Shown here piece after piece: positions 1,584-36,001 of a stretch of 64,000 bases of DNA. Each line of letters opens with the position of its first letter. The stretch's first letter is position 1. The translations under genes and the position numbers were made by a program. The notes under the pieces were generated by a model, which saw nothing but the letters and a program-made list of their open reading frames with translations, made no database searches and was not told where the DNA came from. The DNA comes from Verrucomicrobiaceae bacterium. GTDB taxonomy: Bacteria > Verrucomicrobiota > Verrucomicrobiia > Verrucomicrobiales > Akkermansiaceae. The DNA lies in assembly GCA_027485995.1 (NCBI GenBank), contig JAIXPW010000077.1, positions 1 through 64,000 on the forward strand, in the 5' to 3' direction.

Positions 1584-3641
<2,058 letters not shown>

Positions 3642-5702: not shown

Positions 5703-6598
5703 TGCGACAAGACGTTCCGGCCGCGCGATTCATTTCACCCGTATTCACGCGGTCGTCCCGATCCGGAATGCAAACGCTTGGTTTGCACCATTCGTTGAGG
5801 CCCCCCGAACAACGGGATTGGGTGAGGAGAGCGTGGAGGCCCACAGAGCTGTCTTGGACCTCTGACACAAACGACGGGTAAAGCTCGGATTTCGTCCAGC
5901 TCTTATAGGAAACCTACCCCGCTTCAAAGTTCGCTATTAAACGCAGCCTCTCTTAGATGAAGCTCCTTACCACCCTTGAGCGCGATGAATTCGGTTTCTA
6001 GATTGCCGAATGTCCCTCGATTCCCAGCTGCGTGAGTCTGGGTAAACGCGTCAAGATGCCTTGGCCAACATCTGGAAAGCCCTTGCCGCCTGTCTCGAAG
6101 TGCGAGCATATCTCGGCATGGAAAGGCAGTGCCGTTCTTCCTCGGAGGAAATGTTGAATGCCAAACTTTTCATGCAAGGGTGTGGACGCTGGCAATAAAG
6201 GAGAAAAGATAGTTTTATAATATTTATCTATTTATGTAACTTTATCCAAAATCATGAGAGAGCGAGTGCTGGAATGTGGACCCGAAGTGACGCATTCTAG
6301 AGATCATCGGTCTCATCGAGGCGACCATGCGGATGGCAGCGGGGTGAGCCTGACACCTGCCAGACCTACGTCGCACTGACCCGCCGGACCACGGGAACCA
6401 GCAACGGCGAAAACCCTCCTCCACGTCGGCGATCGAGCTGACAGGCGGCATGACCAAGCTCAATCAGGGCGAAATGTTGAGATACGACACCTTCCCCGAA
6501 TGGCATATGAGGCTTTTGCAATCGGCGTATTTGGCATGTAGGACACTGTCCGAGTCCGAAAGATAGGGGTTCCCCTACCAACCCTGAGGATCAAGAGA
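5703..6598. other. Long intergenic region without a convincing gene
   Basis: Several short open frames occur on both strands, but none has a start signal, a recognisable domain or gene-like composition. The segment near 6205-6240 is strikingly AT-rich (TTTTATAATATTTATCTATT) compared with its GC-rich surroundings. A perfect 7-bp inverted repeat lies at 5769-5787. An 18-bp near-repeat of 4391-4408 begins at 5941. It may contain decayed gene remnants that can no longer be recognised. Confidence 0.5.
5769..5787. promoter_or_regulatory. Perfect inverted repeat TGCAAAC-gcttg-GTTTGCA, possible operator
   Basis: Two perfect 7-bp arms are separated by 5 bp, 67 bp upstream of the ATG of the minus-strand helical-repeat gene that starts at 5702. 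No T-run follows, which argues against a terminator. TGCAAAC-type half-sites are common in operators of LacI-family binding domains, but the regulator encoded at 6599-7705 carries a GntR-type DNA-binding domain. The link is therefore only a guess. Confidence 0.35.
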
Positions 6599-7705
6599 CT
6601 AACCGCCCTTAGGCGATGGCCCGATCGTCCCTCCTCCGATGAATACCGCCTCAAACAAGCTACCGTGGCGGTCCTCCAGGCCGTTGGCGACGTTGTTAAC
6701 CCAGCGTACCACACGGTTTAACACTGTGCGAGCGGACCAACGGATGCAACTGGCGGGAGGATCGCACCACTCGAAAAGCGGACTGTCATCCGAGCAGATG
6801 AGTGAAACGTCCCTAGGCGCGAAAATCCCGCGCTTGGCGAGGTAGTGCTGAACGGCAATGAATTCGCTGGCCTCTTCGATGAAGAGGGCGGTGGGAGGTG
6901 TCAGATCAAAGAGACGGTCCAGACATCGACGCAGGCCTGACGGACCACGTTCCCAGTCCGGCAGATGGTAGTTACCGACGGCAATGCCGTTGGCCTCCAT
7001 GACTCCGAGAATTCTCTGTACGAGCAGTCCGGGATTTGGCTTCCGCATCTCTTCGGGCAGCAAGAACACGATGCGCCGATGTCCAAGTTCCACCAATCGT
7101 TGCACCGCCACCTCGAATGCCGGAAACTTGTCCGGCCCGATTCCGGCCATCCCGAGACGGGAGAAGCGCCCGAACATGGCGAACGCCGGTGCGGATTGCG
7201 CTGCGAACCATTCCAATACGTCGCTGGAAGCCGCTGCGACCACCCAGGCATCGGTCTTCACCTGTTGGACCATTTTCGCAACTCGTTCCGGCTTCATTCC
7301 CAATTCCACCAGGCATTTGGGTGCCAGATCGACTTGGTAGCCACGCCGGGTCAGGTGGAACATGATGTCATGAACCAGTTCCTCATGGCGATCCTTAGTG
7401 CTATGCAACAGCAAGGTGACCCGACAGTTCCTAGCGAGTTCATCACTGTTCATCACGATCTGCCGACGTTGGCCCTTGCCTTGGGAAGCAATCACTCCTG
7501 CTTGCTCCAGGTGGATCATCGCGGCCCTCACCGTGTCGCGCCCCACCTGCAAGTTGCTGACCAGCCAGTTCTCGCCGGGCATCCCACCTGTCCACGTTCG
7601 GCTCCTGATCTCCTCTTTCAGAAAGTCCGCCAATTGCTCGGACGCGGATCGAATACGCAGAGTTCGCACGCCCCAAAACCTGGGGAAATCAAGATCGGCT
7701 GGCAA
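6599..7705 (-). CDS. GntR-type HTH / LacI-type sugar-binding transcriptional regulator
   Basis: A 368-residue protein. Residues 15-85 form a winged helix-turn-helix of the GntR type (SASEQLADFLKEEIRSRTW, LVSNLQVGRDTVRAAM, LEQAGVIASQGKGQRR). From about residue 95 it continues as a periplasmic-binding-protein-like effector domain of LacI/GalR type (TLLLHSTKDRHEELVHDIMF, LVELGHRRIVFLLPEE, DVSLICSDDSPLFEW). Such hybrids are frequent in Verrucomicrobiota next to secreted polysaccharide-acting proteins. It is divergent from the secreted repeat protein and the GH30/GH10 genes, with 124 bp between the starts, so it probably controls them in response to a sugar. The ligand is unknown. Confidence 0.85.
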   Translation of the reverse strand: MPADLDFPRFWGVRTLRIRSASEQLADFLKEEIRSRTWTGGMPGENWLVSNLQVGRDTVRAAMIHLEQAGVIASQGKGQRRQIVMNSDELARNCRVTLLLHSTKDRHEELVHDIMFHLTRRGYQVDLAPKCLVELGMKPERVAKMVQQVKTDAWVVAAASSDVLEWFAAQSAPAFAMFGRFSRLGMAGIGPDKFPAFEVAVQRLVELGHRRIVFLLPEEMRKPNPGLLVQRILGVMEANGIAVGNYHLPDWERGPSGLRRCLDRLFDLTPPTALFIEEASEFIAVQHYLAKRGIFAPRDVSLICSDDSPLFEWCDPPASCIRWSARTVLNRVVRWVNNVANGLEDRHGSLFEAVFIGGGTIGPSPKGG

Positions 7706-7829: not shown

Positions 7830-10800
7830 ATGAAACGACCCGCTTTCTTCGCCTTTGCCACCGTCAACGCCGTCTTGCTTGCCGCACCGTCGGCAAGAGC
7901 CGTTGATGGCACATGGCTCGGTAGCTCCGGCAACTGGAACGCCCCAGGCACCTGGTCTGGCGGCACGATCGCCGACGGTGCGGGCTTTTCGGCCAACTTC
8001 ACCGGCGTGAACATCACCACCGCTCAGACGATCACTCTGACTGCCCCCCAGACCATCGGCAACATCACCTTCACCGACGCCACCACCTCATCAAACGACC
8101 TGGTTATCAGCGGTGCCAACATTCTGACCTTGGACGTCGCCTCGGGGACGCCGGCGATCAACGTCACCCAGTCCGACCGGATTCTCAGCATCTCCAGTGT
8201 GATCGCGGGAAATGATGGATTGGCCAATACCGGCGCCGGAGTCCTCTCGCTAACTGCCGCGAACACCTACAGTGGCGTCACCAATATCGCCGCAGGCAGA
8301 TTGGCCATCGGAAACCTCAGTGCACTGGGCGCCACCTCCGGCATCACCATCGGCGGCACCTCTGCTGCATCCCTCTCCTCCGGCACCACCGGTCTCACCA
8401 TCACCGCGCCGATCACCACGGCCAATACGGGAGTCAACTCCACCCTCGCGTTCGGTGTAAATGCAAGCTCCGCAGGCACCTTCAATCTCAACGGCGCGAT
8501 TGGCGGCAGCGGCAACGTAGTCTTTACAACGGTCGGAACCAGCAACGGCAATTCGCAGACCATCAATCTCGGCACGGCAGGCAATTATGCCGGCACAACT
8601 TCCATTGGTTCGGGCAATATCGCCAATACCATGACGGTCAGGAATGGTTCGGGAGCCGCAAATGTCCTGCCCGCTGGCACGGTCCTAATCTTCGGAAATG
8701 TTGCCGGCAACGGTAGTGGCCGCACTCTGTCATTTGACCTCAATGGCCAGGACCAAACCCTTGCCGGTCTGACCCAGCCGACCAACATACCGAATGACAG
8801 GCATTACCGGGTAACCTCGACCAGCCCGGCCACGCTGACCATCAACAACACTGCGGACTTCAGCTTTGGTGGCTCGAACGTCGATGTTGGCACTTCCATC
8901 CCTGGCACGATAACAAGCTCTCAGATCACCGGTGCGATCGCGCTGGTGAAGAGCGGAGCTGGCACCTTCACCTTGGGCGGCAATCTGACGAATGGCGCCA
9001 CGGTGAGTAACCACCCCTACACCGGGGCCACCAACATCCTTGGCGGCACCCTCCGTCTCTCCAACAACGGCGTGATCTCCGCGAGCAGTGGCATCACCAT
9101 CAACGGCAGCACCGCGAAACTCCTTCAAGAGAACACCGTAACGGCAATTGCTCCCGTCGTTACCCTCACCCAAGGCACTCTCACCGGCAGTGGTGCGGTC
9201 AACACCGTCAACGTGGACAACGCCACCGGCGGCATCATCTCGAACAACAACGGAGTCGAAGGGGCGTCGCTCACCATCGGCTCGCTGACTTTCAATGGTG
9301 CGGCCTCGGTGAATACCTTCGGCAACGTGTCCGCGCCCATCGTGACCACCAGCCTCGCGACCAATGCAGCCGGAACGGTGACGATCAATCCCTCGGCGGC
9401 ATCCTGGGCGGCCGGAACCTATGATCTGATCAGCTATGGTGGGGGCAGCATTTCTGGCGGTGGCTTTGCCCAGTTCGCCCTCGGCACCGTGACGGGTGTC
9501 TCCGCACGTCAGAGCCTTGCCATAGGAGATTCGGGCACCGCCATCACGCTCACGGTCGGCGCGGACGATTCTCCGTATTGGGTGGGTGATGGCGATGGAA
9601 AGTGGAATCCCGCCGCCATCAGCAACTGGAAACTGCTCTCCAACAACAGCGCAACCTCGTTCCTCGCCACAGACAATGTGCTTTTCAATGACGGCGCGAC
9701 GGGTGCCGGCCCCATCAACGTCGATATCGACGTCGCCAACGTCGCGCCGGGCTCAACCACGTTCGACAACAACTCCAAGGACTATGTGCTGAGCAGCTCT
9801 GGCACGTTCGGGATCGAAACCGGAAGCCTGATCAAGAGAGGAACCGGCAGCCTGACCCTGAATACTGTTAATGCTTTCACCGGCAGCACGACCATTGATG
9901 GCGGTTCATTGACCATCGGTGGCGCTGGGCAATTGGGCGGCGGCAATTATGTGGGTACCATCATCAACGAGGGTTCGCTCATCTACAGCAGTTCGGCGTT
10001 CCAGACTCTTGCCGGCATTGTTTCCGGCTCCGGCTCGATCACTCAAAATGGCCCTGGCAATCTTACATTATCCAGTGCCAATACATTCTTCGGCGGTCTC
10101 AAGGTCAAGGGAGGCACCGTGGTCCTGGGCAACAACAACGCGGCCGGAACGGGAACGATCGACTTCGACACCGGTGGCGCGACGAATGCCGCCGTCCGGT
10201 TGAGCGGCGCTCTCACAAGCATCGCCAATCCCATCACCGTCAGCTCCGGCAGCCTCGGGACGAATACGATTGCGAATGTTGGCACCGGCACGCTGGCTTT
10301 GAATGGACCAATCACCATCAGCACAGGAACCACACTCACTGTCGATAGCAGCAGCATCAACAACTCCGCGATGGATCTGGGAACCGGACTCATCACCGGA
10401 GACGGAGGTATCATCGCCACCGGAACAAGCACCAACAGTTTCGGGTTCAAAGGTGCCAATACTTACACGGGAGGTACGACTCTCGGTGGGGCGGGGCTAT
10501 TCATTCCTACCGCAAGTTCCACGGGCTCCGGTGCCGGAACGACTGATGGCGTCTTCGGAACCGGAACACTCACCTTGGGAAGCATTTCGATGCGTTCCAC
10601 GAATACGTTGGACATCACCATCGGAAACACTCTCATCCTCGCCGGAAACCTCACGGCAGTCACTGCAACTGCCGAGAAGAACCTCACATTCTCCGGACCA
10701 GCAACCCTGACAGCCAACCGGACGATCACTTCCCAAATAGGTGCCACGGTCGCTGGCAAAAGCCTCACATTCTCCGGCGTCATCGGCGACGGAGGAAACA

Positions 10801-12308
10801 ACTACGGCATCACCAAGGAAGGTGCGGGAACATTGCTCCTGAATGGACTGAACACCTATGCAGGCACCACCACGGTGAATGCCGGAACATTATCCATCAC
10901 CGACAACTCCGCACTCGGCAGCACCGCCGGTGCCACCACCATCAATGGCGGCAATGGCGCGAATTCCGTGATTCTCAATTTGTCTGCTGCCTCCTCGGAT
11001 CTGACGATTGCCGAACCACTCAACTTCTTCGCGAACACCACAGGACGTGCCCGCTTGTCGAGCGACAGCACACGCAACCACTCTTTGAGCGGTCCCATCA
11101 ATGTGAGCAGCGACACAAATCTTGTGCAGTTTTATTCTGATGGCACCGGTTCCGTCACCGTCAGCGGCGACGTAACAGGGACAATGACAAACGGTGCTCT
11201 CTTCGCGGTTCGAGGCACTTCAACCAACCCATTGAACCGGTTGACGGGCAGTATCAACCTGATCGGCAACCTCTCGAAGACCGATGCTGGAACCTGGCTG
11301 GTGGGGGCTCCCGGGAAAACCTACAGCTGGACGGATACAGTCGTGGCGGCCGGCACCTTGAAGATGGGCTTGGCCAATGTCCTGCCCTCCACGACGACGC
11401 TCATTTTGGGGAACCCAACGGGCGGATCTTTTCCCTTTCTCGACCTCAATGGATTCAATCAGACCGTCGCGGGCATTGCCTACAATGGTCAAGGCTCCGC
11501 CACTGGCACCCGGACTATCACCAGCGCCACTTCAGCGGTCCTCACGGTGAACAATGCCGCCGACTTCATCACGACTGGCGTCAACACGGGCACCAACAAT
11601 GTCGTCCTGACCGGCGCGCTGAGCCTCACCAAACAGGGAGCGGGTAAGCTGGCCCTGAACGGCGTCAACACCTACAGCGGCGATACCACGGTCAACGAAG
11701 GCATCCTTTCCCTGACCAAGGCGGCAAGTTCCGCTGACGCAAATATCAGCAACGATGCCTCAACCGTCACCATCTCCGCCACCCCAGGTGCCACCCTGGA
11801 CCTCGCCTACACCGGCACCGACGAGGTCGACAAACTCTTCATCGGCGGCGTGCAGAAGGCCGCTGGCGTCTGGGGTTCGGCCACTTCGGGGGCACCCAAC
11901 ATCGACCCCAAACTCACAGGCAGCGGCACCCTGACGGTCGCAACGGGTCCAGTCGCCGGCTACACCGCTTGGGCGGCCATCAACGCCGATGGAGAAGGAG
12001 CCGAAGTGGACACCGATAGAGACGGTGTATCGAACGGTGTGGAGTTCTTCATGAACGCCCCTGCCGGATTCACCGCGAATCCCCAACTCAACGCCTCGAA
12101 CACGATCACCTGGACAAACGGTGGCAACATCCCCGCCTCCGCCTATGGGACACAGTTCGTAATCCAGACCTCATCGAATCTCACGAACTGGACGGACGTC
12201 CTCGTCGGAAATCTCACCACCAACACCAATGGACCGGGCGGATTCCTCACCTACACGCTCACCGGCGCATCTCCTCGCTTCGTACGTCTGAAGGTTTCTC
12301 CGAATTGA
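7830..12308 (+). CDS. Giant secreted protein with autotransporter-associated beta-strand repeats
   Basis: A 1492-residue Ser/Thr/Gly/Asn-rich protein with an N-terminal signal peptide (MKRPAFFAFATVNAVLLAAP, cleavage near SARA-VD). It has many copies of the repeat G-x-G-x-L-x-L-x-G-x-N-T-Y-x-G-x-T-x-x-x-x-G-x-L, for example GAGTLLLNGLNTYAGTTTVN and GAGKLALNGVNTYSGDTTVN, typical of a parallel beta-helix passenger. The C-terminus (from about 1355) has the Verrucomicrobial pattern AWAAINADGEGAEVDTDRDG plus a small beta domain. No beta-barrel translocator is visible, so secretion must use another route. It precedes GH30 and GH10 genes on the same strand and is probably a cell-surface polysaccharide-binding or adhesion protein. 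Confidence 0.9.
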   Translation: MKRPAFFAFATVNAVLLAAPSARAVDGTWLGSSGNWNAPGTWSGGTIADGAGFSANFTGVNITTAQTITLTAPQTIGNITFTDATTSSNDLVISGANILTLDVASGTPAINVTQSDRILSISSVIAGNDGLANTGAGVLSLTAANTYSGVTNIAAGRLAIGNLSALGATSGITIGGTSAASLSSGTTGLTITAPITTANTGVNSTLAFGVNASSAGTFNLNGAIGGSGNVVFTTVGTSNGNSQTINLGTAGNYAGTTSIGSGNIANTMTVRNGSGAANVLPAGTVLIFGNVAGNGSGRTLSFDLNGQDQTLAGLTQPTNIPNDRHYRVTSTSPATLTINNTADFSFGGSNVDVGTSIPGTITSSQITGAIALVKSGAGTFTLGGNLTNGATVSNHPYTGATNILGGTLRLSNNGVISASSGITINGSTAKLLQENTVTAIAPVVTLTQGTLTGSGAVNTVNVDNATGGIISNNNGVEGASLTIGSLTFNGAASVNTFGNVSAPIVTTSLATNAAGTVTINPSAASWAAGTYDLISYGGGSISGGGFAQFALGTVTGVSARQSLAIGDSGTAITLTVGADDSPYWVGDGDGKWNPAAISNWKLLSNNSATSFLATDNVLFNDGATGAGPINVDIDVANVAPGSTTFDNNSKDYVLSSSGTFGIETGSLIKRGTGSLTLNTVNAFTGSTTIDGGSLTIGGAGQLGGGNYVGTIINEGSLIYSSSAFQTLAGIVSGSGSITQNGPGNLTLSSANTFFGGLKVKGGTVVLGNNNAAGTGTIDFDTGGATNAAVRLSGALTSIANPITVSSGSLGTNTIANVGTGTLALNGPITISTGTTLTVDSSSINNSAMDLGTGLITGDGGIIATGTSTNSFGFKGANTYTGGTTLGGAGLFIPTASSTGSGAGTTDGVFGTGTLTLGSISMRSTNTLDITIGNTLILAGNLTAVTATAEKNLTFSGPATLTANRTITSQIGATVAGKSLTFSGVIGDGGNNYGITKEGAGTLLLNGLNTYAGTTTVNAGTLSITDNSALGSTAGATTINGGNGANSVILNLSAASSDLTIAEPLNFFANTTGRARLSSDSTRNHSLSGPINVSSDTNLVQFYSDGTGSVTVSGDVTGTMTNGALFAVRGTSTNPLNRLTGSINLIGNLSKTDAGTWLVGAPGKTYSWTDTVVAAGTLKMGLANVLPSTTTLILGNPTGGSFPFLDLNGFNQTVAGIAYNGQGSATGTRTITSATSAVLTVNNAADFITTGVNTGTNNVVLTGALSLTKQGAGKLALNGVNTYSGDTTVNEGILSLTKAASSADANISNDASTVTISATPGATLDLAYTGTDEVDKLFIGGVQKAAGVWGSATSGAPNIDPKLTGSGTLTVATGPVAGYTAWAAINADGEGAEVDTDRDGVSNGVEFFMNAPAGFTANPQLNASNTITWTNGGNIPASAYGTQFVIQTSSNLTNWTDVLVGNLTTNTNGPGGFLTYTLTGASPRFVRLKVSPN

Positions 12309-12324
12309 ACCAGCCACCATCCCG

Positions 12325-14346
12325 ATGTCTGCCATCAAGCCAATTCGCTGTCCTTTCGCTCGTCACCTGATGGGTGCGTTCCTAATCGCGGGAACGTCCC
12401 TGCTCCATGCGCAGAATCTGGTGACGAACGGCGGGTTTGAGAGCGGGCTGACCGGATGGTCCAACAACACCAGCGGCGGGGCCGTTGCAGCCTTCTCTCT
12501 GGAGACCTCGCTGCCGTATGCCGGGGCGAAGGCCATGAAGATTGCCGTCACAAATCCCGGCGCACAGCTTCATAACGTACAGACCCTCGGCCCTACTTTC
12601 GCACTCACCGTGGGCACATCGACCTCGATCACGTTTCGCGCACGCGCCTCGACCGCCGGGGTCAAGGTGCGTTTTGTGATGCAGAACAATACCTACAACA
12701 ACAAGGAGTTCACGCTCTCCACCGCTTGGCAGTGGTACACTTGGAACCATACCACGACCGAAGCCAGCCCACGCCTTCGCCTTCAGTTCCGCTCGGCGGG
12801 CACGGTCTGGCTGGATGAAATCTCGGTCGTGGCCAATGCCGCAGCGGGGACCACCACTCGCATTTCATCCGACCCCACCATCCGGCATCAGATGATGGAC
12901 GGCATCGGGGGCTCGATCGCGTTTAACTTGCCGGACTATGAAGCCTTGAGCGCTACGAAAAAGAACGAGATCGAAAACCTGCTATACGTCGATTGCGGCA
13001 TCGATATTGTCCGCCTCAGAACAGGCAACTCTGATTCGTTGAACAACGAGTTGGCCATGAGGGCCCACAGGAATGGTGCCAGAAGCCTGTTGACTTCCTG
13101 GTCTCCACCGGCGTCCCTCAAGAGTAACAACAGCACTGTAAGCGGCACTCTCCGGATGGTATCAGGCAAGTACGATTACGCCGGATTCGCGAATTGGTGG
13201 TATGAAAGACTCTCGGCATCCAATTGGACCCACGACTTCATCTCCATCCAAAATGAGCCCAGTTACGATCCCGGCGACAAGGAGACTTGTCGCTTCTTCG
13301 CCAACGAGACCGTTCCCGCAACAACGAGCGGGTCTGCCAGCTACAGGTTGGCCCTGGATGCCGTTTACAACAGAATCAAGAATGAAACTTACAAACCGCA
13401 ATTGATCGCGGTGGACGCTGAAAACCACTCAGCTTTCAAGACAATCGCTCCGACGGTTTCGGGGCTTTCCTATGTAAACCACCTGGGATTCCACAACTAC
13501 GGCACAAATGACTTTGCAGGGGTTGAAGCAAAGTATAATGGCAGGAGAGGATGGATGACGGAATGGGGGAAAGATGGCACGGCTGCGGACCCTGGAATTC
13601 TGGAGAACTGGTTGCTTCTTGCGGCAAATATCCACGACACGCTGGTTGGGGCGGATGCCTCGGCCTACCTCGCGTGGAGAATGGTCCATGGCAACAATAC
13701 GGGTCAGGTCTGGGCCATGATCGGTGTGGAAAATGGACAATACCAGGTTCAGAATTCGTTCTATTCCGTCAAGCACTACGCGAAACACATCTCAAGCGGC
13801 CATCAGCGGTTCGAGGTTACGAATTCCGGCACCAATGCCAACCTGCGCGCCTCCGGCTACATCAACCCCGCAGGCAACCAGCTCACCCTCATCGTCCTCA
13901 ACACCGGCGGTACGGACGATACGATTTCGCTCCGCTTTCCGGGACTCCCCGTCGCGTCAGTCAGCGGCTTCCGTACCAGGCAGTTCGACATCGGCGGGTT
14001 CCCCTACAGATCGCTCGGGACCTTGAACATTGCCAATGATCAGGCGATCTCCAAGAACTCGATCACCACCTTCGTCGTCACTCTTGCCGAGACCCTCAAC
14101 CCCTATGATCCGGCACTCCTTCGCGTGGACGGAACCGCCTACGCTGGCAATCAATTCTCACTGTCCATCCCCGCGCAACCCGGCCATGACTTCATCCTCT
14201 GGAAGTCCACCACCCTCGCCGCAGGCTCCTGGCAGAAGGTGACGAATGCGGTCTTCACCGAATCCAACGGCCAGCTCATCCTGACCGATCCGAACACCAA
14301 TGCCACCCGCGCGTTCTACTGCGTTGAGCGAGACACCGGGCTCTGA
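12325..14346 (+). CDS. Secreted GH30-family glycoside hydrolase with N-terminal carbohydrate-binding-like domain
   Basis: A 673-residue protein with a signal peptide (cleavage near LLHAQ, about residue 29). Residues 31-170 form a CBM4/9-like sandwich (NLVTNGGFESGLTGW). From about 180 it is a GH30 (beta/alpha)8 enzyme, with MMDGIGGSIAFNLP at the start of the barrel, LLTSWSPPASLK, the acid/base Glu311 in SIQNEPSYD, and the nucleophile Glu413 in MTEWGKDG. The C-terminal 75 residues form a small beta domain resembling the end of the preceding protein. GH30 enzymes cleave glucuronoxylan or related beta-glycans. It begins 16 bp after the repeat protein and is followed by a GH10 gene, so xylan is the likely substrate. 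Confidence 0.88.
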   Translation: MSAIKPIRCPFARHLMGAFLIAGTSLLHAQNLVTNGGFESGLTGWSNNTSGGAVAAFSLETSLPYAGAKAMKIAVTNPGAQLHNVQTLGPTFALTVGTSTSITFRARASTAGVKVRFVMQNNTYNNKEFTLSTAWQWYTWNHTTTEASPRLRLQFRSAGTVWLDEISVVANAAAGTTTRISSDPTIRHQMMDGIGGSIAFNLPDYEALSATKKNEIENLLYVDCGIDIVRLRTGNSDSLNNELAMRAHRNGARSLLTSWSPPASLKSNNSTVSGTLRMVSGKYDYAGFANWWYERLSASNWTHDFISIQNEPSYDPGDKETCRFFANETVPATTSGSASYRLALDAVYNRIKNETYKPQLIAVDAENHSAFKTIAPTVSGLSYVNHLGFHNYGTNDFAGVEAKYNGRRGWMTEWGKDGTAADPGILENWLLLAANIHDTLVGADASAYLAWRMVHGNNTGQVWAMIGVENGQYQVQNSFYSVKHYAKHISSGHQRFEVTNSGTNANLRASGYINPAGNQLTLIVLNTGGTDDTISLRFPGLPVASVSGFRTRQFDIGGFPYRSLGTLNIANDQAISKNSITTFVVTLAETLNPYDPALLRVDGTAYAGNQFSLSIPAQPGHDFILWKSTTLAAGSWQKVTNAVFTESNGQLILTDPNTNATRAFYCVERDTGL

Positions 14347-27879: not shown

Positions 27880-27923
27880 AAGCATCCCCGCCGGGAATCG
27901 AACCCAGATCTAGAGTTTAGGAA
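27880..27923. mobile_element. Left attachment repeat (attL) of the tRNA-Arg island
   Basis: A perfect 44-bp direct copy of 34765-34808. It duplicates the 3' half of the tRNA-Arg gene, from acceptor 3' strand through T-arm into the anticodon loop. The sequence diverges immediately on both sides. This is the usual footprint of tyrosine-integrase insertion into a tRNA 3' end and marks the host-side edge of the island. Confidence 0.93.
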
Positions 27924-27965
27924 GCTTTTGTTCTTTGTTGATTTTACAATGAAAATCCGCCCCGT

Positions 27966-27982
27966 GTTACGGTTTGTTACGG
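27966..27982 (+). repeat. GTTACGG double repeat near the left end of the island
   Basis: Two GTTACGG units with a 10-bp period (GTTACGGTTTGTTACGG), followed by ATAAAA. An identical 17-mer in the same orientation, followed by TTAAAA, lies at the other end (34641-34657). The helical-turn spacing and the terminal location fit arm-type integrase or Xis binding sites. Confidence 0.6.
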
Positions 27983-28024
27983 ATAAAACTTGAAATCAGT
28001 TCCGGAAGGTGTCCAAAAACGCGC

Positions 28025-29356
28025 ATGCGCAGCACCGAGAAAGTCACTCTGAAGCCGTTGAAGCATGCCCGCTATTCCTGGGTTGTGCGCTGGCCCGGTC
28101 CGGGTGAATCGCGACTTCAAAAAGCGTTCAAGACTGAGACCGCCGCGAAGGCATGGGCAAAGGCTCGAAAGGCGGAACTTGGCGACGTTGGCCTTTCCTT
28201 TGGCTCGATCACGGAACCGGAACGCGCTGCCGTCCAGTTTTGGCGGGGATTCGTGGAAAGCGTGCCCGATGCCGAGCCGCCCGCCCTCATGGCCATCCTG
28301 CAAGACTACGCGGAACGATGGAAAGCCACACGCTCAAGCGTGACCGTGGAAGCCGCCGTTTTGGCGTATGAAGCCGCCAAGGACGCGGAAGGGCTCCGCC
28401 CGTTGTCCCTGCAAGGCATTCGCACCCGTTGCGGGCGATTCGTCCGCGACTTCGGAAGCCGCCCCATTTGCTCGATCACATCGGCGGAAGTGTCGGATTG
28501 GATTCTGTCCCTTGCTGCCGTCCGCAAGCCCGCCAAGGGCTCGCGAAACGCCAAGCCGGACACGTCCGCGCAGCTTGGCCTTGTGGCAAAGCGCAACCAT
28601 CGCCTCGCTGTCTCTGGCCTCTTCAGCTATGCGAAAACGCGGGGATGGGTCCGGGAAAATCCCGTCACCGATGCCGCCCGGCCCAAGCCCCCGAAAACCC
28701 GCCCCGGCATTCTCCGCCCGGTTGACGTTGCCCGGTTCTTCTCCGCCCTGGAAGCCGCCGCGCCTTCGCTCGTTTCCTTTTGGGCGGTCCGGTTCTTTGC
28801 GGGAATCCGGGAGCAAGAAAGCCTGCGCATGGATTGGAGCATGGTTGACCTTGCTGCCGGGGAAATCCACTTGCCCGACACCGTGACGAAAACCGGGCAT
28901 GCCCGGACGGTGAAAATCGAGCCCGCGCTTGCTGCTTTCCTCGCCCCCCACAAGAGACCCGACGGCCCGATTGTCACCCCGTCGCCAATGGCCCGCCGCT
29001 GGCACCTGGGAAAAGCCCTCGCCTTGCTTGAAGCGGAAGACACCGCCGCGAAAGAACACGCATCGAAGAAAGACAAGGACGCCCCGCGCCCCTTCCCTGT
29101 GCCGATGCCTGCCAACGTCGCCCGCCATAGCTTCGCCACGATGCACTTGCTAGCCTTCCGGCACGCTGGCGAGACCTCGATTCAGCTTGGCCACGGTGGG
29201 AGCCCTGAAATGCTTCACCGCCATTACAAGGGCATGGCCACAGAAGCAGAAGCGAAGGCGTTCTGGTCCATCCGTCCCGCCGCTGGTCCCGTCAACGTAG
29301 TTTCCATGGAATCACCCGCCCCGAAGAAGCCGGCGAATCGGAAAAAAGCCCTCTAA
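28025..29356 (+). CDS. int: Tyrosine recombinase / integrase of the tRNA-Arg island
   Basis: A 443-residue protein from the ATG at 28025. The N-terminal region is a DNA-arm binding type (HARYSWVVRWPGPGESRLQK, KTETAAKAWAKARKAELGD). A SAM-like core-binding domain is in the middle (residues about 100-230). The catalytic domain has Arg in FAGIREQESLRMDW, Lys in VTKTGHARTVK, Arg-His in NVARHSFATMH (the first His of the box is Asn, as in some families), His in SIQLGHGG and the nucleophile Tyr in MLHRHYKG. It lies 101 bp inside attL and reads into the element. It should catalyse integration at tRNA-Arg and, with an Xis, excision. Confidence 0.93.
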   Translation: MRSTEKVTLKPLKHARYSWVVRWPGPGESRLQKAFKTETAAKAWAKARKAELGDVGLSFGSITEPERAAVQFWRGFVESVPDAEPPALMAILQDYAERWKATRSSVTVEAAVLAYEAAKDAEGLRPLSLQGIRTRCGRFVRDFGSRPICSITSAEVSDWILSLAAVRKPAKGSRNAKPDTSAQLGLVAKRNHRLAVSGLFSYAKTRGWVRENPVTDAARPKPPKTRPGILRPVDVARFFSALEAAAPSLVSFWAVRFFAGIREQESLRMDWSMVDLAAGEIHLPDTVTKTGHARTVKIEPALAAFLAPHKRPDGPIVTPSPMARRWHLGKALALLEAEDTAAKEHASKKDKDAPRPFPVPMPANVARHSFATMHLLAFRHAGETSIQLGHGGSPEMLHRHYKGMATEAEAKAFWSIRPAAGPVNVVSMESPAPKKPANRKKAL

Positions 29357-29374
29357 ATCAGGGCGTATGCGGCC

Positions 29375-29878
29375 TCAGTTATCGCGAGACTTTTTGGAGA
29401 GATCAGCTTTCTGAGCGCTTTTCCCCTTCAGAAAAACAGTCACCAAGCCGATGATAGTCGTCCCAAAAATTACGCCAGAGACCGTTTCATGGCCTGTAAG
29501 GAATGCAGTGATTCCCGCCCCTCCATACAAAACCGAAAGCACGAAAGCATAAAATTGGCCCCGCCCGCTTTGTGTGGTTTGCGCAGTTACGGCTATCGTC
29601 TCAAGATTCTGCCGATGGGCCGCTTGAGTTTCAGCCATCACCATTACGCGGTTAGCCCCATCAGTGATCAACTCATCATACGCTCGAAGCAAATCCTCTG
29701 ATGGGAGCGGTCCCGAATGCGAGCGCGACTGTGTGGTGATGTTGATCGCAGTGACCTTTGAAACTGCGTTTAGCACGCGGTCCCTTTTGTCTTTATTGAG
29801 ATTGCTGAGCAGGCTGGAATCGACCTGTGCGATCAATGCTGCAGCCTGTTGCTTTTCTTCGTGTGACGGGCCGCTCAT
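29375..29878 (-). CDS. DUF2335-like membrane protein (island cargo)
   Basis: A 167-residue protein. The soluble N-terminal part (1-107) contains GPLPSEDLLRAYDELITDGA and MVMAETQAAHRQNLETIA, the characteristic segment of DUF2335 predicted membrane proteins. Two adjacent transmembrane helices follow (about 108-128, QFYAFVLSVLYGGAGITAFL; about 132-150, VSGVIFGTTIIGLVTVFLKG) and then a charged tail. Its start overlaps the stop of the 77-aa gene (ATGA), so the two are translationally coupled. It faces the integrase tail to tail. The function is not established; a cargo role, for instance in phage conflict, is inferred only from its position. Confidence 0.75.
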   Translation of the reverse strand: MSGPSHEEKQQAAALIAQVDSSLLSNLNKDKRDRVLNAVSKVTAINITTQSRSHSGPLPSEDLLRAYDELITDGANRVMVMAETQAAHRQNLETIAVTAQTTQSGRGQFYAFVLSVLYGGAGITAFLTGHETVSGVIFGTTIIGLVTVFLKGKSAQKADLSKKSRDN

Positions 29879-30108
29879 GCCTTGGCCTGCAGTGCTTCAA
29901 CGACCGCCTGATCTTTGACGATCTTTGCCGCGTCACGGATGTCTTGACCAACCATCTGAAAATCGTTCCTTAGGGCACGAATGTCCGCTGCGCATTCGCT
30001 TTCGCTGCGGTTGAACTCAAAGCTCCCGCCGGCCAAATTGAACACGGTGGCAGCACCCGAAAGGAACGTCGGGGTGCTGTAGAGGAAGTCTGTGGTGATG
30101 CGTCCCAT
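29875..30108 (-). CDS. 77-residue island protein coupled to the DUF2335 gene
   Basis: It starts at ATG 30108 (MGRITTDFLYSTPTFLSGAA) and overlaps the DUF2335 start by four bases. It has a short hydrophobic N-terminal half and a charged helical C-terminal half (AADIRALRNDFQMVGQDIRD). In-frame codons upstream to 30336 look untranslated. No family is firmly recognised. Tight coupling suggests that the two proteins act together. Confidence 0.65.
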   Translation of the reverse strand: MGRITTDFLYSTPTFLSGAATVFNLAGGSFEFNRSESECAADIRALRNDFQMVGQDIRDAAKIVKDQAVVEALQAKA

Positions 30109-30701
30109 GGCGATGATTATAGTCGCCGACCGGGCACGAGCAATCGCAAACGATGCCTTCCGAAGAGGATTTTGGGATCTTGCAAGCACAATCTGAAAAA
30201 ACCGTCGCTTGAGACAAGGGTTCAATTGATTGATAATGAACGTTTTACGAAGAACAATTGTGCGCTTTTTGATGATTTCGTGGAAATTGAGCATATTCCA
30301 AAAATTCTGCGCCTCGACCCCAAGAAAATGCAACATGTTGCACTTTTGAGCATTCCGAGGCGCGGTTCTAAGCCCCTGGAGGCGTTGGTCATCCCGGCGG
30401 AAAGTCGACCCGCGCAGGGCACCACTGCTTTCTGCAACTTGCTAGTTTCCAGTTTAATGCGACGAATTTTCAAGGCTTTTCAATGGTGACAGTGCTGATT
30501 TGCCCTTTTCGTTGTATGAAGCTTTCCCGGCCTATTCTCCCGAAAAGGATCGGGAAAACCTCTGCGAACACTGCGACCAATGCATGCCCCCGCGCTTTCC
30601 AAGCGCTGAGAAAAACCAACGCTCCCAATGCGAGATAGTCCTTCGATTTAGTGCCCCCCCCTCTCGGGAATGCCTCCCGTTTGACATTCGGGTGCAGGGT
30701 A
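30109..30701. other. Divergent regulatory region of the island
   Basis: It separates the minus-strand cargo pair from the plus-strand replication operon. It is AT-richer than the flanking genes and contains the perfect palindrome at 30329-30342. No gene is supported on either strand, although a 167-codon minus-strand frame overlaps its right end. Confidence 0.6.
30329..30342. promoter_or_regulatory. Perfect 14-bp palindrome TGCAACATGTTGCA, candidate operator
   Basis: A fully symmetric 14-mer set in AAAA...CTTTT, inside the only divergent promoter region of the island. Symmetry and place suggest a binding site for a dimeric repressor, host- or phage-encoded, since the element has no obvious repressor gene of its own. 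Confidence 0.5.
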
Positions 30702-30911
30702 ATGCAGGCAACACCGCATCTACTCAATCGGGCACAAGCCGCCGCCTTTCTTGGCGTGGCATTGCGCACTCTCGACACCCTCACCGCCAAAGGCGAAATT
30801 CCGGTCGTTTCCATCGGTCGGTCGCGGCGATTCCGCGCTTCCTCTTTGGAGTACTTCGTTGAGGCAAATGAATCGCGTCCGCCGGTCCGCAAGAACCGCC
30901 GGAACAAGTAA
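30702..30911 (+). CDS. Xis/AlpA-like helix-turn-helix protein
   Basis: 69 residues from the ATG at 30702 (MQATPHLLNRAQAAAFLGVA). It has the excisionase-family winged helix pattern L-x-R-x-x-A-A-x-F-L-G-V-x-x-R-T-L-D, followed by GEIPVVSIGRSRRFRASSLE. This MerR-like fold is used by excisionases and by AlpA-type activators of satellites. It is the first gene of the operon Xis / zinc finger / primase / helicase. It may direct excision, activate replication genes, or both. Confidence 0.8.
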   Translation: MQATPHLLNRAQAAAFLGVALRTLDTLTAKGEIPVVSIGRSRRFRASSLEYFVEANESRPPVRKNRRNK

Positions 30912-30923
30912 CCCCTCCCGTCA

Positions 30924-31163
30924 ATGAAGTCTCGTCTTCCTCGATCACGGAAGGATGCACTCCTTGCCTCCATTCCTCTCTACTTCACCGGCCTCCCTTG
31001 CTGCCACGGGCACCTTGCCCCAAGGAGAAGCCTCAACAATGTCTGTCTCTCTTGCCATAGGACATGGCGAAGGCTCCGAAATGGGTTTGGCGTCTATGGG
31101 GGAGAGCTTCCTGGGCAACTCTCCTTTCGATTCTACAAGCAAATTACCCGCCGGCGGAAATGA
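30924..31163 (+). CDS. Small phage-type zinc-finger protein
   Basis: 79 residues. The core YFTGLPCCHGHLAPRRSLNN, then VCLSC, matches a motif common in phage proteins (Y-F-T-G-x-P-C-x-H-G-H-x-A-x-R, then C-x-x-C). Cys26, His30, Cys41 and Cys44 are the plausible zinc ligands. It overlaps the next start by four bases (ATGA), which also fixes the start of the primase. DNA binding is likely; some relatives are attached to endonuclease domains, but no nuclease domain is present here. Confidence 0.65.
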   Translation: MKSRLPRSRKDALLASIPLYFTGLPCCHGHLAPRRSLNNVCLSCHRTWRRLRNGFGVYGGELPGQLSFRFYKQITRRRK

Positions 31164-32263
31164 GCGAGAACCCCGCGACACGCCGCGCCATCGCGGCGGA
31201 ACTCTTGGGCGAAGCTCCCGACGAAAACGGCTTTGCCCCTTGCCCTGGTCGTCACCTTCACAACGGCTCGACTGGCCGGCGTGACTTCCAAGTGCTCTTG
31301 GAAGGTGCCCCAACCGGGCGGTGCTTTCACACCTCATGCGCGGCCATTGTGGACGATTTCAACGCGAAGCTGCGGAGCATGATCGGGAAGTCGGAAGCGA
31401 GCGGTGCCAGTGGCCCGCCCCGCTCGCCGATGCTTGGCAGCAACGTGCCGCCGCTGCCAGTGGCTCCCAAGCGAGCGAAGCGGCCCCTGTATGACCCCGC
31501 GAAGCTCGCGGCCTTCGCTGCATGCGCTCCCTTCCCCATCACGGCGGAGTGGTTGGCCTCTCGCTCGCCCGTCCTGATTCCGAAGGGCCAAGGCATCGCA
31601 ACGGCGGAGCTTGTGCTGTCCTCTCTGTATGCTCCGGGGGAGCGTGTCCTCGTCTTCACGAGGGAGCATTCCCAAGGGGATTTCCTGTGGGAATGCTCGC
31701 GAGGTGCCTTTCGTCTTGGCGAGCAACCGGGAGTCGGGGCGGTGCCCTCTCCATTGCCGGCGGGTGGTCCGCTTGGGGTTTGGTTTCTCGCTCAACCCGT
31801 GACCGGGCGATGGGCGGCAAACCCTAACAACCGCGCCCCCGATGGCTCCCCGAAGATGGGAAGGCGTCATGGGGCGGTCGTGACCTCTTGGCGGTTCATG
31901 GTTCTGGAATCCGATGAAGCTCCGCCCGAGTTGTGGCTACGCGCCTTGGTTCAACTGCCCTTGCCCATTGTGGCGGTTTACACCTCGGGCGGTCGCTCGA
32001 TCCATGCCCTTTGCCGGGTGGGTGCCAGTTGCAAGGAAGAGTGGGATTCCCTTCGTGATGACCTGGTGCCCATCCTGTGCCCTCTCGGGGCGGATGCTGC
32101 TGCAATGACCGCTGTCCGTTTGACGCGCCTTCCCGGCACGCTCCGCCATGGCTCCCGGGGAAAGGATGGAAAAGTGAATCCCTACCCTTCCCCGCGCCCT
32201 CAACGCCTGCTGTGGCTCAACCCGGAAGCAACCGCCGTTTCGATCCTCGACCTTCGCCCCTGA
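31160..32263 (+). CDS. Primase-like replication protein of the island
   Basis: 367 residues. The N-terminus has CHC2-like zinc ligands (Cys28 and His32 in FAPCPGRHLH; Cys55 and Cys60 in GRCFHTSCA). The C-terminal half carries the archaeo-eukaryotic-primase-like strand pattern WRFMVLESDEAP and IVAVYTSGGRSIHALCRV. Here SGGRSIH matches the nucleotide-binding SGGxGxH motif, and TRLPGTLRHG follows. It is followed nine bases later by a helicase, the usual primase-helicase pair for autonomous replication of satellites and plasmids. It probably initiates at an origin within the element. Confidence 0.72.
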   Translation: MSENPATRRAIAAELLGEAPDENGFAPCPGRHLHNGSTGRRDFQVLLEGAPTGRCFHTSCAAIVDDFNAKLRSMIGKSEASGASGPPRSPMLGSNVPPLPVAPKRAKRPLYDPAKLAAFAACAPFPITAEWLASRSPVLIPKGQGIATAELVLSSLYAPGERVLVFTREHSQGDFLWECSRGAFRLGEQPGVGAVPSPLPAGGPLGVWFLAQPVTGRWAANPNNRAPDGSPKMGRRHGAVVTSWRFMVLESDEAPPELWLRALVQLPLPIVAVYTSGGRSIHALCRVGASCKEEWDSLRDDLVPILCPLGADAAAMTAVRLTRLPGTLRHGSRGKDGKVNPYPSPRPQRLLWLNPEATAVSILDLRP

Positions 32264-32272
32264 CTTCCTCCC

Positions 32273-33868
32273 GTGTCTTTCCCTGAAAAACCTCCCGCCG
32301 CTACTGGCGACACCGGCCCCGATGAAATCCGCCGGAACTTCGCGGCGGTCGCTGCCGCCACTGACACACCCGCCCCGGGCGACGGGTGCCGCCTTCCGAT
32401 TGTGTCCCTGGCACAACCGATTTCCGCCCTCGCCCGGACGGTTGGGATGATACTTCACGCCGCCCCGCTCTTCCGGTTTGGGGAAACTCTCTCGACGGTG
32501 GACGAATCCGGCCGCATTGCCGGGATGACTGCGGAGCGGTTCCCCTCATGGGTGGAAAGTTACCTCGCCTTCACCCGCCCGACGAAAGACACGCCGGCGG
32601 TGGAATCCATCGGCAAAGACCTCGCTGGCAAGATCCTCGCGGCGGACCAATTCCGCGACCAGCTCCGCGAGCTGAAAGCCGTTTCCGAAGCCCGCCTGCC
32701 ATCATGGAAGGGCGAGGGCGACACGCGCACGGTGGAACTTGCCCCTGAGGGCTTCAACGCTGCCACGGGGCTCTTCACGCTCAACCGCATTCCATACGCG
32801 GAAGACATGACCGAAAAGGAAGCGGGGCGGGTGCTGTGGGATGAACTCTTGAAGGATTTCCCATTTGATCCCGAGGGCGAATCCCAACCCCACAAGAGGC
32901 GGAGCTTTGCCGCTCAACTCGCGGCAATGGTTGGCGTCTATTGCCACGCGCTTTTCGATGAAGGCACGCCCCGCCCGATGATCGTTTTCAACGCGAACCA
33001 ACCGGGCTCCGGGAAAAGCCTTCTCATGCGCCTTGCCCTTGCTCCGGTGCATGGTCCGCCGCCCGAGTCAGGAAAGCCCGAGACAGAAGCGGAGTTTGAA
33101 AAGGTGCTCGATTCCGCCGCCATCGCCCGCAAGCCCTTCCTCGTCTTGGATGACTGCAAGAGCATTCACTCGCAAGCCCTCAACCGCTTTGTGACTTCGC
33201 CCGTGCATGAGTGCCGCCTCATGCATTCGCAACGCTTGGCGACGGTGCCCAAGGTGACGCAAGTATGGGCGACGGGCAACGGGCTCGCCATCAGTGAAGA
33301 CCTCGACCGCCGCGCCCTGGTGATTGACCTTTTCGAGCCCGGGGAAGCCGCGAGCCGCTCATTCAAACGCGAGATTACGCCCGGGTGGCTTTTCTCCCCC
33401 GAGACTCGCGCCCGGTCGCTCGCGGCCCTGTGGTTGCTTGTGCGATGCTGGCGAGACGCAGGCATGCCGATGATGAAGGAAAACCGCCGCGCCTCGTTTG
33501 AAGAGTGGTCTGCCATCGTTGGCGGCATCGTGACGAGCTTCGGATTCCCGAATCCCTTCGCCCCGAGGAAAGCCGACGTTGGCGGCGATGAAGCAAGCCG
33601 CGCCCTCAACCTCGTCATTGGCTCGCTGGTCGGTGAAGCAAGCCGCGACCTTCCGCCAACCCTGACAACCGGGGACATCCTCGACCGGGCGGAAGCTGAC
33701 GGGATGCTCGACGTGATTGTGGGATTCGCCAAGGAGCCCAAGAAGGCCCTCGGGTGGCGTCTCAAGAAGCTCAAGGGGCGGCATCTGATCGACACGCAAC
33801 GCCGCGCTTTCGAGTTTGGCCGGCGTGAGTTGTCTGCGGGGGCAAAGTATCCCATCACCTTCCTGTGA
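32273..33868 (+). CDS. AAA+/SF3-like helicase of the island
   Basis: 531 residues from a GTG start. The ATPase core has Walker A NANQPGSGKSL (about 240-250), Walker B KPFLVLDD (about 287-294), sensor 1 VWATGNG (about 331-337) and a likely arginine finger in EDLDRRALVIDLFEPGE. This order is typical of D5/SF3-type replicative helicases of phages and satellites. It forms the replication module with the upstream primase. Downstream is a long non-coding segment that could hold the origin. Confidence 0.8.
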   Translation: MSFPEKPPAATGDTGPDEIRRNFAAVAAATDTPAPGDGCRLPIVSLAQPISALARTVGMILHAAPLFRFGETLSTVDESGRIAGMTAERFPSWVESYLAFTRPTKDTPAVESIGKDLAGKILAADQFRDQLRELKAVSEARLPSWKGEGDTRTVELAPEGFNAATGLFTLNRIPYAEDMTEKEAGRVLWDELLKDFPFDPEGESQPHKRRSFAAQLAAMVGVYCHALFDEGTPRPMIVFNANQPGSGKSLLMRLALAPVHGPPPESGKPETEAEFEKVLDSAAIARKPFLVLDDCKSIHSQALNRFVTSPVHECRLMHSQRLATVPKVTQVWATGNGLAISEDLDRRALVIDLFEPGEAASRSFKREITPGWLFSPETRARSLAALWLLVRCWRDAGMPMMKENRRASFEEWSAIVGGIVTSFGFPNPFAPRKADVGGDEASRALNLVIGSLVGEASRDLPPTLTTGDILDRAEADGMLDVIVGFAKEPKKALGWRLKKLKGRHLIDTQRRAFEFGRRELSAGAKYPITFL

Positions 33869-34764
33869 CCGCTACGCGCCCGCCTGAGGGCTCCCCCTGC
33901 CCCCCTTGCACGAGTTGGGAGGGCGAGCCCCAAAAGGCCAGTCCCTCCCCCGAATGGCGACTCTCGGGCATCACTAGGGACCATTCGCAAAAGGAATCTT
34001 TTAGGCCCGAGCCCTTCCCTTAGTGCCTCCGACTCCGGGCATTTAAGCGGCTGGCGCGGTGAAAAAAACCGCTGCCCATTTCCCCCGGGAAGGGGAAAGT
34101 GCCCCGCTCCTTCCCTTGCCCCTCCCCCCGGGGGGTAAGGAATCTTTTTTCCCACCTGGCCCCGAGGTGGGTCTTGGAACTGACAGCCAGAACGAGAGAG
34201 GCACCCCGCCCTTTTCTTTGGCACTGGTTCCGGTGCCAATGTCCCTTCGCCTGGCCCCTTCCCGCTGTGCCCTCGATTCCTTTGCACTTCCGGGTGTCGA
34301 TCCCCTTGCTTGAAAGGCCTTCCCCGAAATGGAAAGGCCACTCTGAAAGCCTTGTTGCGCTTGGTTCTGTGGTCTTTTGGGGTTTCTCTCTGGGAATAAG
34401 AGAAGGGGGAGAGTTGACCTTGTGAGAGGGGGACAGGCTCCCGGCAATGGCGTGGGGGACTGGAATCCTCGGGCTGAAAACCCCAAAAAGGCCACTTCCG
34501 CCGCAACCCGTAAGGAAAGCGGGTGGCCTTTCGATTCAAGGGAAGGCCTTCACCCGCTCCGCTTCCATTCGCTCCCCGCCCCGCGAAAACGCCGCGCCCT
34601 GGAAGGGGCTTCACGGTCCAGCCAAATCGGGGGCGATCCTGTTACGGTTTGTTACGGTTAAAATCGGCAATTCGGCGCATTTTCGCGCTTTTCAGTGCAT
34701 TTCAACCGCCACCCGGAAACTTGCTCAAGTCCTTGAAAACTAGCACTTTGCTTGCATCTAAAGG
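33869..34764. other. Long non-coding right end of the island, candidate replication origin
   Basis: About 900 bp without a supported gene. It contains repeated AAAGGCC(AC) words on both strands (33933, 34313, 34333, 34487, 34523 and 34543 regions), a strong hairpin TTGGCAC/GTGCCAA at 34218-34239, and the GTTACGG double repeat at 34641-34657. Its place directly after the primase and helicase genes suggests the origin. A 482-codon minus-strand frame here runs across the helicase gene and is a shadow. Confidence 0.5.
34641..34657 (+). repeat. GTTACGG double repeat near the right end of the island
   Basis: Identical to the 17-mer at 27966-27982 and in the same orientation, 107 bp inside attR. 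The pair brackets the element just within the attachment repeats, as expected of arm-type integrase sites. Confidence 0.6.
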
Positions 34765-34808
34765 AAGCATCCCCGCCGGGAATCGAACCCAGATCTAGAG
34801 TTTAGGAA
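34765..34808. mobile_element. Right attachment repeat (attR) of the island, inside the tRNA gene
   Basis: A perfect 44-bp match to 27880-27923. It contains the 3' part of the intact tRNA-Arg, so insertion regenerated the tRNA. The repeats span a 6.93-kb element. Confidence 0.93.
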
Positions 34809-34839
34809 ACCCTTGTTCTATCCGTTGAACTACGAGGAC
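34768..34839 (-). tRNA. tRNA-Arg (anticodon CCU)
   Basis: It folds as a full cloverleaf on the minus strand. The acceptor is GTCCTCG with CGGGGAT, the D-arm GTTC-AACGGATA-GAAC, the anticodon arm AGGGT-TTCCTAA-ACTCT with anticodon CCT, the variable loop 4 nt, and the T-arm CTGGG-TTCGATT-CCCGG; the discriminator is G. CCA is not encoded. It reads AGG codons and serves as the integration site of the neighbouring island. Confidence 0.95.
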
Positions 34840-34894
34840 GTTTTCTTTACAGTGTAAGGCTTCGGTTGACAGAAGCCTGACCTTGAAAGGCCGC

Positions 34895-34957: not shown

Positions 34958-36001
34958 ATGAGCGAAACGTGGAGCAAAGCCGGTGAGAACCTGGTGAGAC
35001 ATCGCGGTGGCACCTACTACCTGCGGGCATGGGTCGGCGGCAAGGTCATTCGAATAAGCCTCGAAACGAAAGATCTCCGGATTGCGAAGCTGAAGCGAGA
35101 CACCGAGCTGGATGCCCAGCGCCAGAAAGCAGCCAAGAAGCTGCCCGAGGCGGGAAAGACACTCGGCGATGCGCTTGAGGTCGTTCGGCTGCGCCTAGCA
35201 TCGGTCCCCGACCACAAGGACAGCACTCGCCACTACTACGACCAGCTCGTGACGGCGGTGAAGGGCTCGCTGCCAGCGGATCGAGCCGCGAAGAGTTGGA
35301 CCGCCGACGAGGCCCGGGTGTGGTGGAAGCAATTCACCAGCGGAGTGTCAGCAACGCGCGCGAATGGCGCTCTTCGGATCGTCCGCATGATGTTCGACAT
35401 CCTTGTGGAGTCCGGGTCCCGACGTGACAATCCGGGATCGGATCTGAAACGCCGGAGAGTTCCTCAGACCGGGCTTTCTCATCTGCCCCAGCGCGAGAAG
35501 TTCGAGGAGATCCTCAAGTCGATCCGGAGCCTGACCCATCCGTCCGCGAAAGAGTCCGCCGATTTCGTTGAGTGGCTGGCGTGGTCAGGGATGCGCGTGA
35601 ACGAAGTTCGGCACTTCTGGTGGGAGCATGAGGGCAAGCAGTGGCTGGAGGTCACTGGAGGCCCAAACGGCACGAAGAACCACCGGCACCGGCACATTCC
35701 GAAGTTCGAGGCGCTGAAGCGGATTCTGGACGCCCGTCGTTATCCGGGCTGCACCGGTCCAGTGTTTTCGATCAAGTCCCCGCGATTCGCCCTGACCAAC
35801 GCATGCAAGCGCTTGGGGATTCCGCACATCCGGATCCACGACCTGAAACACCTGTTCATGACGACAGCGATCGAGAAGGGCGTGGACATTCCCACTGTCT
35901 CGAAATGGGGAGGCCATCAGGACGGCGGCGTGCTGGCGATGCGGACCTATGGGCACATTCGCGATGATCACAGCCTCGAGGAAGCGCGGAAGATGCGCTG
36001 A
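34958..36001 (+). CDS. int: Tyrosine recombinase / phage integrase (second element)
   Basis: 347 residues. The arm-binding N-terminus has the pattern VRHRGGTYYLRAWVGGKVIR, and the core-binding domain is about 70-160. In the catalytic part Arg is present in WSGMRVNEVRHFWWEH, Lys is likely in GTKNHRHRHIPK, and the nucleophile Tyr is in MRTYGHIRDDH. The second conserved box reads RIHDLKHLFMTT, with Lys where almost all family members have Arg (HDLRH). Activity may be reduced. It starts 119 bp from the tRNA-Arg 5' end and reads into the prophage. Its last 146 bp overlap a convergent gene. Confidence 0.9.
   Translation: MSETWSKAGENLVRHRGGTYYLRAWVGGKVIRISLETKDLRIAKLKRDTELDAQRQKAAKKLPEAGKTLGDALEVVRLRLASVPDHKDSTRHYYDQLVTAVKGSLPADRAAKSWTADEARVWWKQFTSGVSATRANGALRIVRMMFDILVESGSRRDNPGSDLKRRRVPQTGLSHLPQREKFEEILKSIRSLTHPSAKESADFVEWLAWSGMRVNEVRHFWWEHEGKQWLEVTGGPNGTKNHRHRHIPKFEALKRILDARRYPGCTGPVFSIKSPRFALTNACKRLGIPHIRIHDLKHLFMTTAIEKGVDIPTVSKWGGHQDGGVLAMRTYGHIRDDHSLEEARKMR

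Follow-up and report, generated by a model that had tools for sequence, protein, structure and literature searches.

A compact phage-satellite-like island in a tRNA-Arg(CCU) gene of a Verrucomicrobiales bacterium and its relatives in other tRNA genes

Gene content and boundaries of the island

The window, by which we mean the whole 64-kb stretch of DNA analysed here, contains a single tRNA gene according to ARAGORN, tRNA-Arg(CCU), and an island of about 6.9 kb occupies it (Table 1). The island is bounded by a 44-nt direct repeat whose two copies are identical and lie 6,885 nt apart, start to start; the repeat extends to 55 nt at 95% identity, and the next-best direct repeat within the 11-kb region is only 72% identical. 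Identity over 44 nt is far beyond chance. A perfect 44-bp repeat in tRNA-Arg(CCU) had been reported in the first-pass annotation, and both copies were recovered at exactly the coordinates in Table 1, the left one representing only the 3' part of the tRNA.

Table 1. Features of the island and of the adjoining prophage end, in window coordinates
Feature	Coordinates	Strand	Basis
attL, displaced chromosomal 3' part of tRNA-Arg(CCU), one 44-bp copy	27880..27923	.	repeat; empty site in G139/G135
Paired 8-mers TGTTACGG, 10 bp apart, probable left integrase arm sites	27965..27982	+	
Tyrosine recombinase (integrase), 443 aa from ATG (460 aa from upstream TTG)	28025..29356	+	phrog_1 5.8e-26
DUF2335 membrane protein, variable cargo	29375..29878	-	PF10097 6e-11; phrog_3996 9e-29
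153-aa ORF, no assigned function, variable cargo	29875..30336	-	
HTH_17 AlpA/Xis-like (excisionase-like) protein; alternative ATG 30702	30651..30911	+	PF12728 9.1e-10; phrog_66
Small zinc-ribbon ORF	30924..31163	+	phrog_1081, phrog_23777
Primase; N-terminal Cys/His cluster, AEP-like motifs (VLESDE, SGGRSIHAL)	31160..32263	+	phrog_2597
Replicative helicase/initiator; Walker A GSGKS, Walker B LVLDD	32273..33868	+	phrog_10537 2.2e-31
Conserved noncoding region 3' of helicase, candidate origin	33869..34640	.	aligned with L039
Iteron set 1: 34313-34320 (+), 34333-34340 (+), 34370-34377 (-)	34313..34377		
Iteron set 2: 34487-34494 (+), 34524-34531 (-)	34487..34531		
Paired TGTTACGGTT, probable right integrase arm sites	34640..34659	+	
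attR, island-borne tRNA 3' part, second 44-bp copy	34765..34808	.	repeat
Functional tRNA-Arg(CCU), chimaeric: 3' part from island, 5' part from adjacent prophage	34767..34839	-	ARAGORN
Prophage near end (tRNA 5' part)	34798..34840	.	partner repeat C32:106528-106570
Integrase of adjacent prophage, outside island	34958..36001	+	family matches

Pfam and PHROG matches confirm the gene kit first listed for the island, namely an integrase, an Xis-like protein, a zinc finger, a primase and a helicase, with PF12728 above its Pfam cut-off and PF00589 and PF19263 below theirs. Beyond that list, the island encodes a DUF2335 membrane protein and a 153-aa ORF, both on the minus strand; the DUF2335 gene is missing from sister islands, and the AlpA/Xis-like protein is 51 to 53% conserved in them. 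Integrases 63 to 73% identical to the window island's sit at tRNA-Arg(CCU) in other genomes. The stop codon of the zinc-ribbon ORF overlaps the primase start (ATGA). The helicase, originally annotated as SF3-like, is a Walker-type helicase, and its putative membership of SF3 rests on motifs and on likeness to DUF5906, a weak match (E 0.039) below the curated cut-off, and to its PHROG family. AlphaFold models of the helicase (4-sequence alignment, pLDDT 32) and the primase (3-sequence alignment, pLDDT 39) were both useless, and the profiles of the two proteins matched no convincing solved structure. The absence of structural and packaging genes claimed at the outset stands after a family search of the island proteins: no structural or terminase gene was detected in the window island, no relaxase or conjugation family among its proteins (Pfam), and no capsid-redirecting or interference gene. 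A phrog_57 match (4.4e-5) was rejected as a terminase because it is the HTH of the Xis-like protein, and a minus-strand ORF at 33166-34614 was rejected as a gene because it has no family match and overlaps the helicase and the candidate origin.

The "prophage DNA" that the first-pass annotation had placed next to the island proved to be an adjoining 71.7-kb prophage with structural genes. It starts inside the same tRNA, 43 bp of whose 5' half recur at its far end, and runs from window position 34798 through 64000 and on to position 106570 of contig C32 (L003-L005). Its genes include a portal, a head protease, a major head protein, a tape measure, a terminase small subunit, methyltransferases and RecE, and all of these except the methyltransferases are the grounds on which it looks complete. 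Island and prophage each take up one half of this tRNA, so that the functional gene is put together from the two, and the prophage-derived half carries one base change that turns a C-G pair into U-G. The att repeats of island and prophage overlap by ~11 bp around the anticodon. Beyond the att region the two have no common sequence longer than 15 bp, and their likeness is not above that of a reversed-sequence control; a packaging-site-like sequence common to both was looked for and none was found. The neighbouring prophage is only a candidate for a helper.

To rebuild the empty site, the left flank up to 27923 was joined with the chromosome beyond the prophage, from C32:106539, and this join restores a tRNA-Arg(CCU) whose acceptor stem pairs completely; no second tRNA-Arg(CCU) copy was found in the assembly, which is 84% complete. 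The joined flanks run uninterrupted in genomes G139 (843/843 bp, 96%) and G135 (90%). G139 itself carries a sister island in tRNA-Cys, with a 52-bp repeat, a helicase 93% and a primase 84% identical to those of the window island and an integrase just 30% identical, and the tRNA-Cys site of that island is empty in the present genome (1022/1022 bp, 92%). The flanking chromosome is 96% (Arg site) and 92% (Cys site) identical against 83% for the island DNA, which fits separate acquisition rather than descent, and movement was recent, as each of two close species has an empty site where the other carries an island. The insertion is real and recent, and the island is mobile between tRNA sites and species.

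Probable arm sites and a candidate replication origin

Near each end of the island lie paired 8-mers, spaced by 10 bp here as in L040 and G126, that are probable integrase arm sites, a new finding beyond the earlier annotation. Arm words agree between both ends of one element and differ among elements: the word is TGTTACGG in the window island, TGTAACCA in L040 (pairs at 7075/13772) and CTTACGG in G126 (pairs at L073 7807 and L042 2106), where one of the four copies is one base off.

The noncoding region after the helicase, also new here, aligns with L039 up to 34532, inside a block at 83% identity. It contains two sets of iterons, whose word is AAAGGCCA/TGGCCTTT at the set positions in the window island, L039 and L040, and ATCGACCA/TGGTCGAT in L042; all five window positions (two with one mismatch) match L042 in column and strand. 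In a shuffle test (500 shuffles), no shuffle reached the six copies counted in L042 or the ten that L055 has of a different word. The iteron count in the window island alone is not significant (p 0.21), so the case for its iterons rests on the comparison with relatives. AT content between the two sets is 41% in the window island (40% for the whole island), 41% in L039, 48% in L040 and 57% in L042; in the window island an AT-rich core is thus only weakly developed. We regard this region as a candidate origin, with a switch of iteron word between relatives as at PICI origins. Arm sites that agree at both ends, and iterons that hold their positions while the word changes, require selection for function. 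In L040 (G147), GC-rich tandem repeats of roughly 65 bp, at ~13400-13750, separate the candidate origin from the right arm sites.

Related islands in Verrucomicrobiales

Seven complete primase-helicase islands bounded by tRNA repeats were found, 6.7 to 10.3 kb long and spread over five tRNA types (Arg, Cys, Ser, Met and Leu): the window island (tRNA-Arg CCU, 6.9 kb), L039 (tRNA-Cys, 6.7 kb), L040 (tRNA-Arg CCU, 6.9 kb), L055 (tRNA-Ser CGA, 7.9 kb; helicase clear, primase not matched), L060 (tRNA-Met, 7.5 kb), L062 (tRNA-Met, 10.3 kb) and L065 (tRNA-Leu UAA, 7.9 kb). Besides these, the G126 island in tRNA-Arg CCU is split over two contigs (L073 and L042). A search for the same gene order in other genomes, suggested in the first-pass annotation, has thereby recovered the same primase-helicase layout in their tRNA islands. 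The protein families of the islands are integrase, HTH_17, primase and helicase plus cargo, and no structural, terminase or relaxase family was detected among the proteins of the seven complete ones. Cargo across the islands includes a BsuBI/PstI-type restriction enzyme, a HigB toxin with an HTH partner, and DUF2335. The ORF just ahead of the primase is unrelated from one member to another, and its stop overlaps the primase start in the window island, L039, L040, L072 and L073. Of 387 Verrucomicrobiales genomes, 35 have relatives of the primase, and some of these relatives lie within prophages.

Related integrase and Xis proteins are also found in tRNA islands with other bodies (L100, L101, L102, L104, L105 and L109). 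The best PICI-like satellite candidate in this collection is L100 (1935-16867 in G171; 14.9 kb), which occupies tRNA-Arg(CCU) and whose integrase shares 66% identity with that of the window island. It encodes a terminase small subunit (11277-11759; phrog_57 1.5e-15) and a 507-aa primase/helicase-like protein; no structural gene was detected in it besides the terminase small subunit. Two islands in tRNA-Arg(CCU), L101 (3918-8098 in G101; 4.1 kb) and L105 (10635-14131 in G080; 3.5 kb), contain int, xis and little else, and a second integrase remnant (3019-3237) beside L101 indicates that the site was used more than once. L102 (7.9 kb) has a DnaG-type primase, and L109 is 14.4 kb long. L104 (4703-13632 in G096; 8.9 kb), in tRNA-Arg(CCG), encodes a prohead protease (9479-10024) and a tape-measure-like protein (11044-12408), with portal and terminase not detected, and is either a capsid-coding satellite or a prophage remnant. 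Pooled family matches had made L109 look like a capsid-forming satellite, which was rejected when the protease and tape measure were traced to L104 and the terminase small subunit to L100.

Outside the islands, the nearest full-length relatives of the primase and helicase belong to Akkermansia phages and prophages. Phage Moulinsart (ON453896) and related prophages have homologous neighboring primase (44%) and helicase (31%) genes, although Moulinsart itself is a complete phage of 31 kb that encodes tail proteins, an endolysin and a repressor. The replication module is present in real prophages at L046, L047, L051 and L054, and a tree built on primase and helicase joined together intermingles islands with prophages, indicating that modules passed between them and making a phage origin of the module likely. 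A scan of IMG/VR viral contigs with the helicase, integrase and primase found no relatives at the sensitivity used, which is weak negative evidence because the method depends on exact peptide words. Conjugative plasmids or decayed prophages among the relatives had been named beforehand as evidence against a satellite; none of the close relatives is of either kind, whereas among distant ones the replication module does occur in full prophages and L104 has its prohead protease and tape measure. On these data we lean toward a hitherto undescribed, modular satellite family across Verrucomicrobiales, in which one int/xis lineage and one primase-helicase-iteron-origin lineage exchange partners and combine with terS or cargo modules in many tRNA genes; in the present genome a satellite and a large prophage would each contribute one half of the sole tRNA-Arg(CCU) gene detected.

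The satellite reading and its alternatives

The experimentally known satellites considered here come from Proteobacteria, Gram-positive cocci and Streptomyces, and a search among open-licence papers found none describing satellites in Verrucomicrobiota. P4-like satellites integrate in tRNA genes and have their own primase/helicase and an iteron origin, as the window island does with its candidate origin, but the packaging and regulatory genes of P4 were not detected in it and its primase and helicase are separate genes. It is also smaller than typical PICIs. Gram-negative PICIs follow the plan xis-pri-rep and then an iteron origin, all rightward, and in PICI origins an AT-rich region lies between two sets of iterons immediately 3' of the initiator gene (PMC6092414). 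The window island is alike in its att repeats, its integrase at one end and its rightward xis-pri-rep-ori order and, on comparative evidence, in two iteron sets directly 3' of rep; it differs in having no terS, interference or capsid genes and in a tRNA gene also used by a prophage, whereas the PICI attachment site is spared by temperate prophages. PICMIs, known from Vibrionaceae, have an integrase, AlpA (PF12728) and a primase within 6 to 7 kb (PMC10803314). The window island resembles them in size (~6-7 kb), in its core of integrase, AlpA (PF05930/PF12728) and primase, in direct-repeat flanks, in the lack of capsid-remodelling genes and in a variable cargo slot. Unlike PICMIs, which integrate at fis and which a helper phage packages as concatemers, it lies in tRNA-Arg(CCU) of a member of the Verrucomicrobiota, divides primase and helicase between two genes, with a DUF5906 match that falls short of the curated cut-off, and has presumed packaging. 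It probably works as PICMIs or small PICIs do. Because it is not at fis and its attachment gene is not exclusive, it is not a formal PICI or PICMI.

The anatomy of integration and replication is well supported, and the island is probably a complete, compact phage-satellite-like integrative element that is excised by its integrase and Xis, replicated from an iteron origin and packaged by a helper. The integrase would recombine the 44-bp attP with the 3' part of tRNA-Arg(CCU) via the paired arm sites, and the AlpA/Xis-like protein would drive excision and probably turn on the rightward operon of xis, zinc ribbon, primase and helicase. The helicase/initiator may then open the directly downstream origin of two iteron sets, with the primase priming, to yield circular or concatemeric copies that a helper phage would most likely package, as in PICMI and PICI. 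Packaging by a helper is suggested by likeness to PICMI (PMC10803314) and PICI and by the terS of the related L100. Of the phage satellite proposed in the first-pass annotation, the island with an integrate-excise-replicate kit is borne out: its relatives, the empty sites and an origin laid out like that of PICIs all support it. Excision and replication themselves are inferred from gene families, the empty sites and the covarying arm sites and iterons. A satellite in the strict sense, one that a helper phage induces and packages, is presumed. The best reading is a new PICI/PICMI-like satellite lineage in Verrucomicrobiales, with presumed helper dependence and packaging.

A mobile integrative replicon that excises and copies itself and moves by general transduction, natural transformation or conjugative mobilisation would not be a phage satellite, and the lack of a packaging or phage-interference gene suits it, as do the helicase-like proteins on small actinobacterial and proteobacterial plasmids and the HigB toxin and restriction cargo, which would serve any mobile element. 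We nevertheless think it rather unlikely, given that no relaxase or conjugation family was detected in the islands, that the closest full-length primase and helicase relatives are those of Akkermansia phages and prophages, not plasmids, and that a related island carries terS.

The recurrence of one compact layout with open core genes in seven complete islands, the selection for function required by matching arm sites and position-stable iterons with a changed word, and the recent movement evident from reciprocal empty sites all make improbable a shrunken prophage remnant, in which int, xis and the replication module would have been left by deletion and be immobile as a unit, even though real prophages and phage Moulinsart contain that module and the int-related L104 keeps a prohead protease and tape measure. 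Still more improbable is a single composite element of island and adjacent prophage moving together: adjacency, the common tRNA gene and the overlap of their att repeats are what one would expect of it, but each has its own integrase and att repeat pair, and sister islands exist without this prophage.

If the satellite reading is true, satellite biology extends to a new phylum, Verrucomicrobiota, including the Akkermansia family, and the combination of int/xis, primase-helicase and iteron origin provides markers that models of the SatelliteFinder type are likely to miss. It would also make it possible to test directly if the PICI-type origin predates the known lineages or arose convergently with them, and point to carriers of defence genes to seek in gut and freshwater bacteria.

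Two further observations concern individual loci. The tRNA-Met island of G369 (L062) carries its BsuBI/PstI-type restriction endonuclease at 4997-6284, with an adjoining 105-aa ORF. At L043 (10938-13171) and L044 (9022-12468), second, partial helicase copies lie next to complete ones, suggesting tandem islands.
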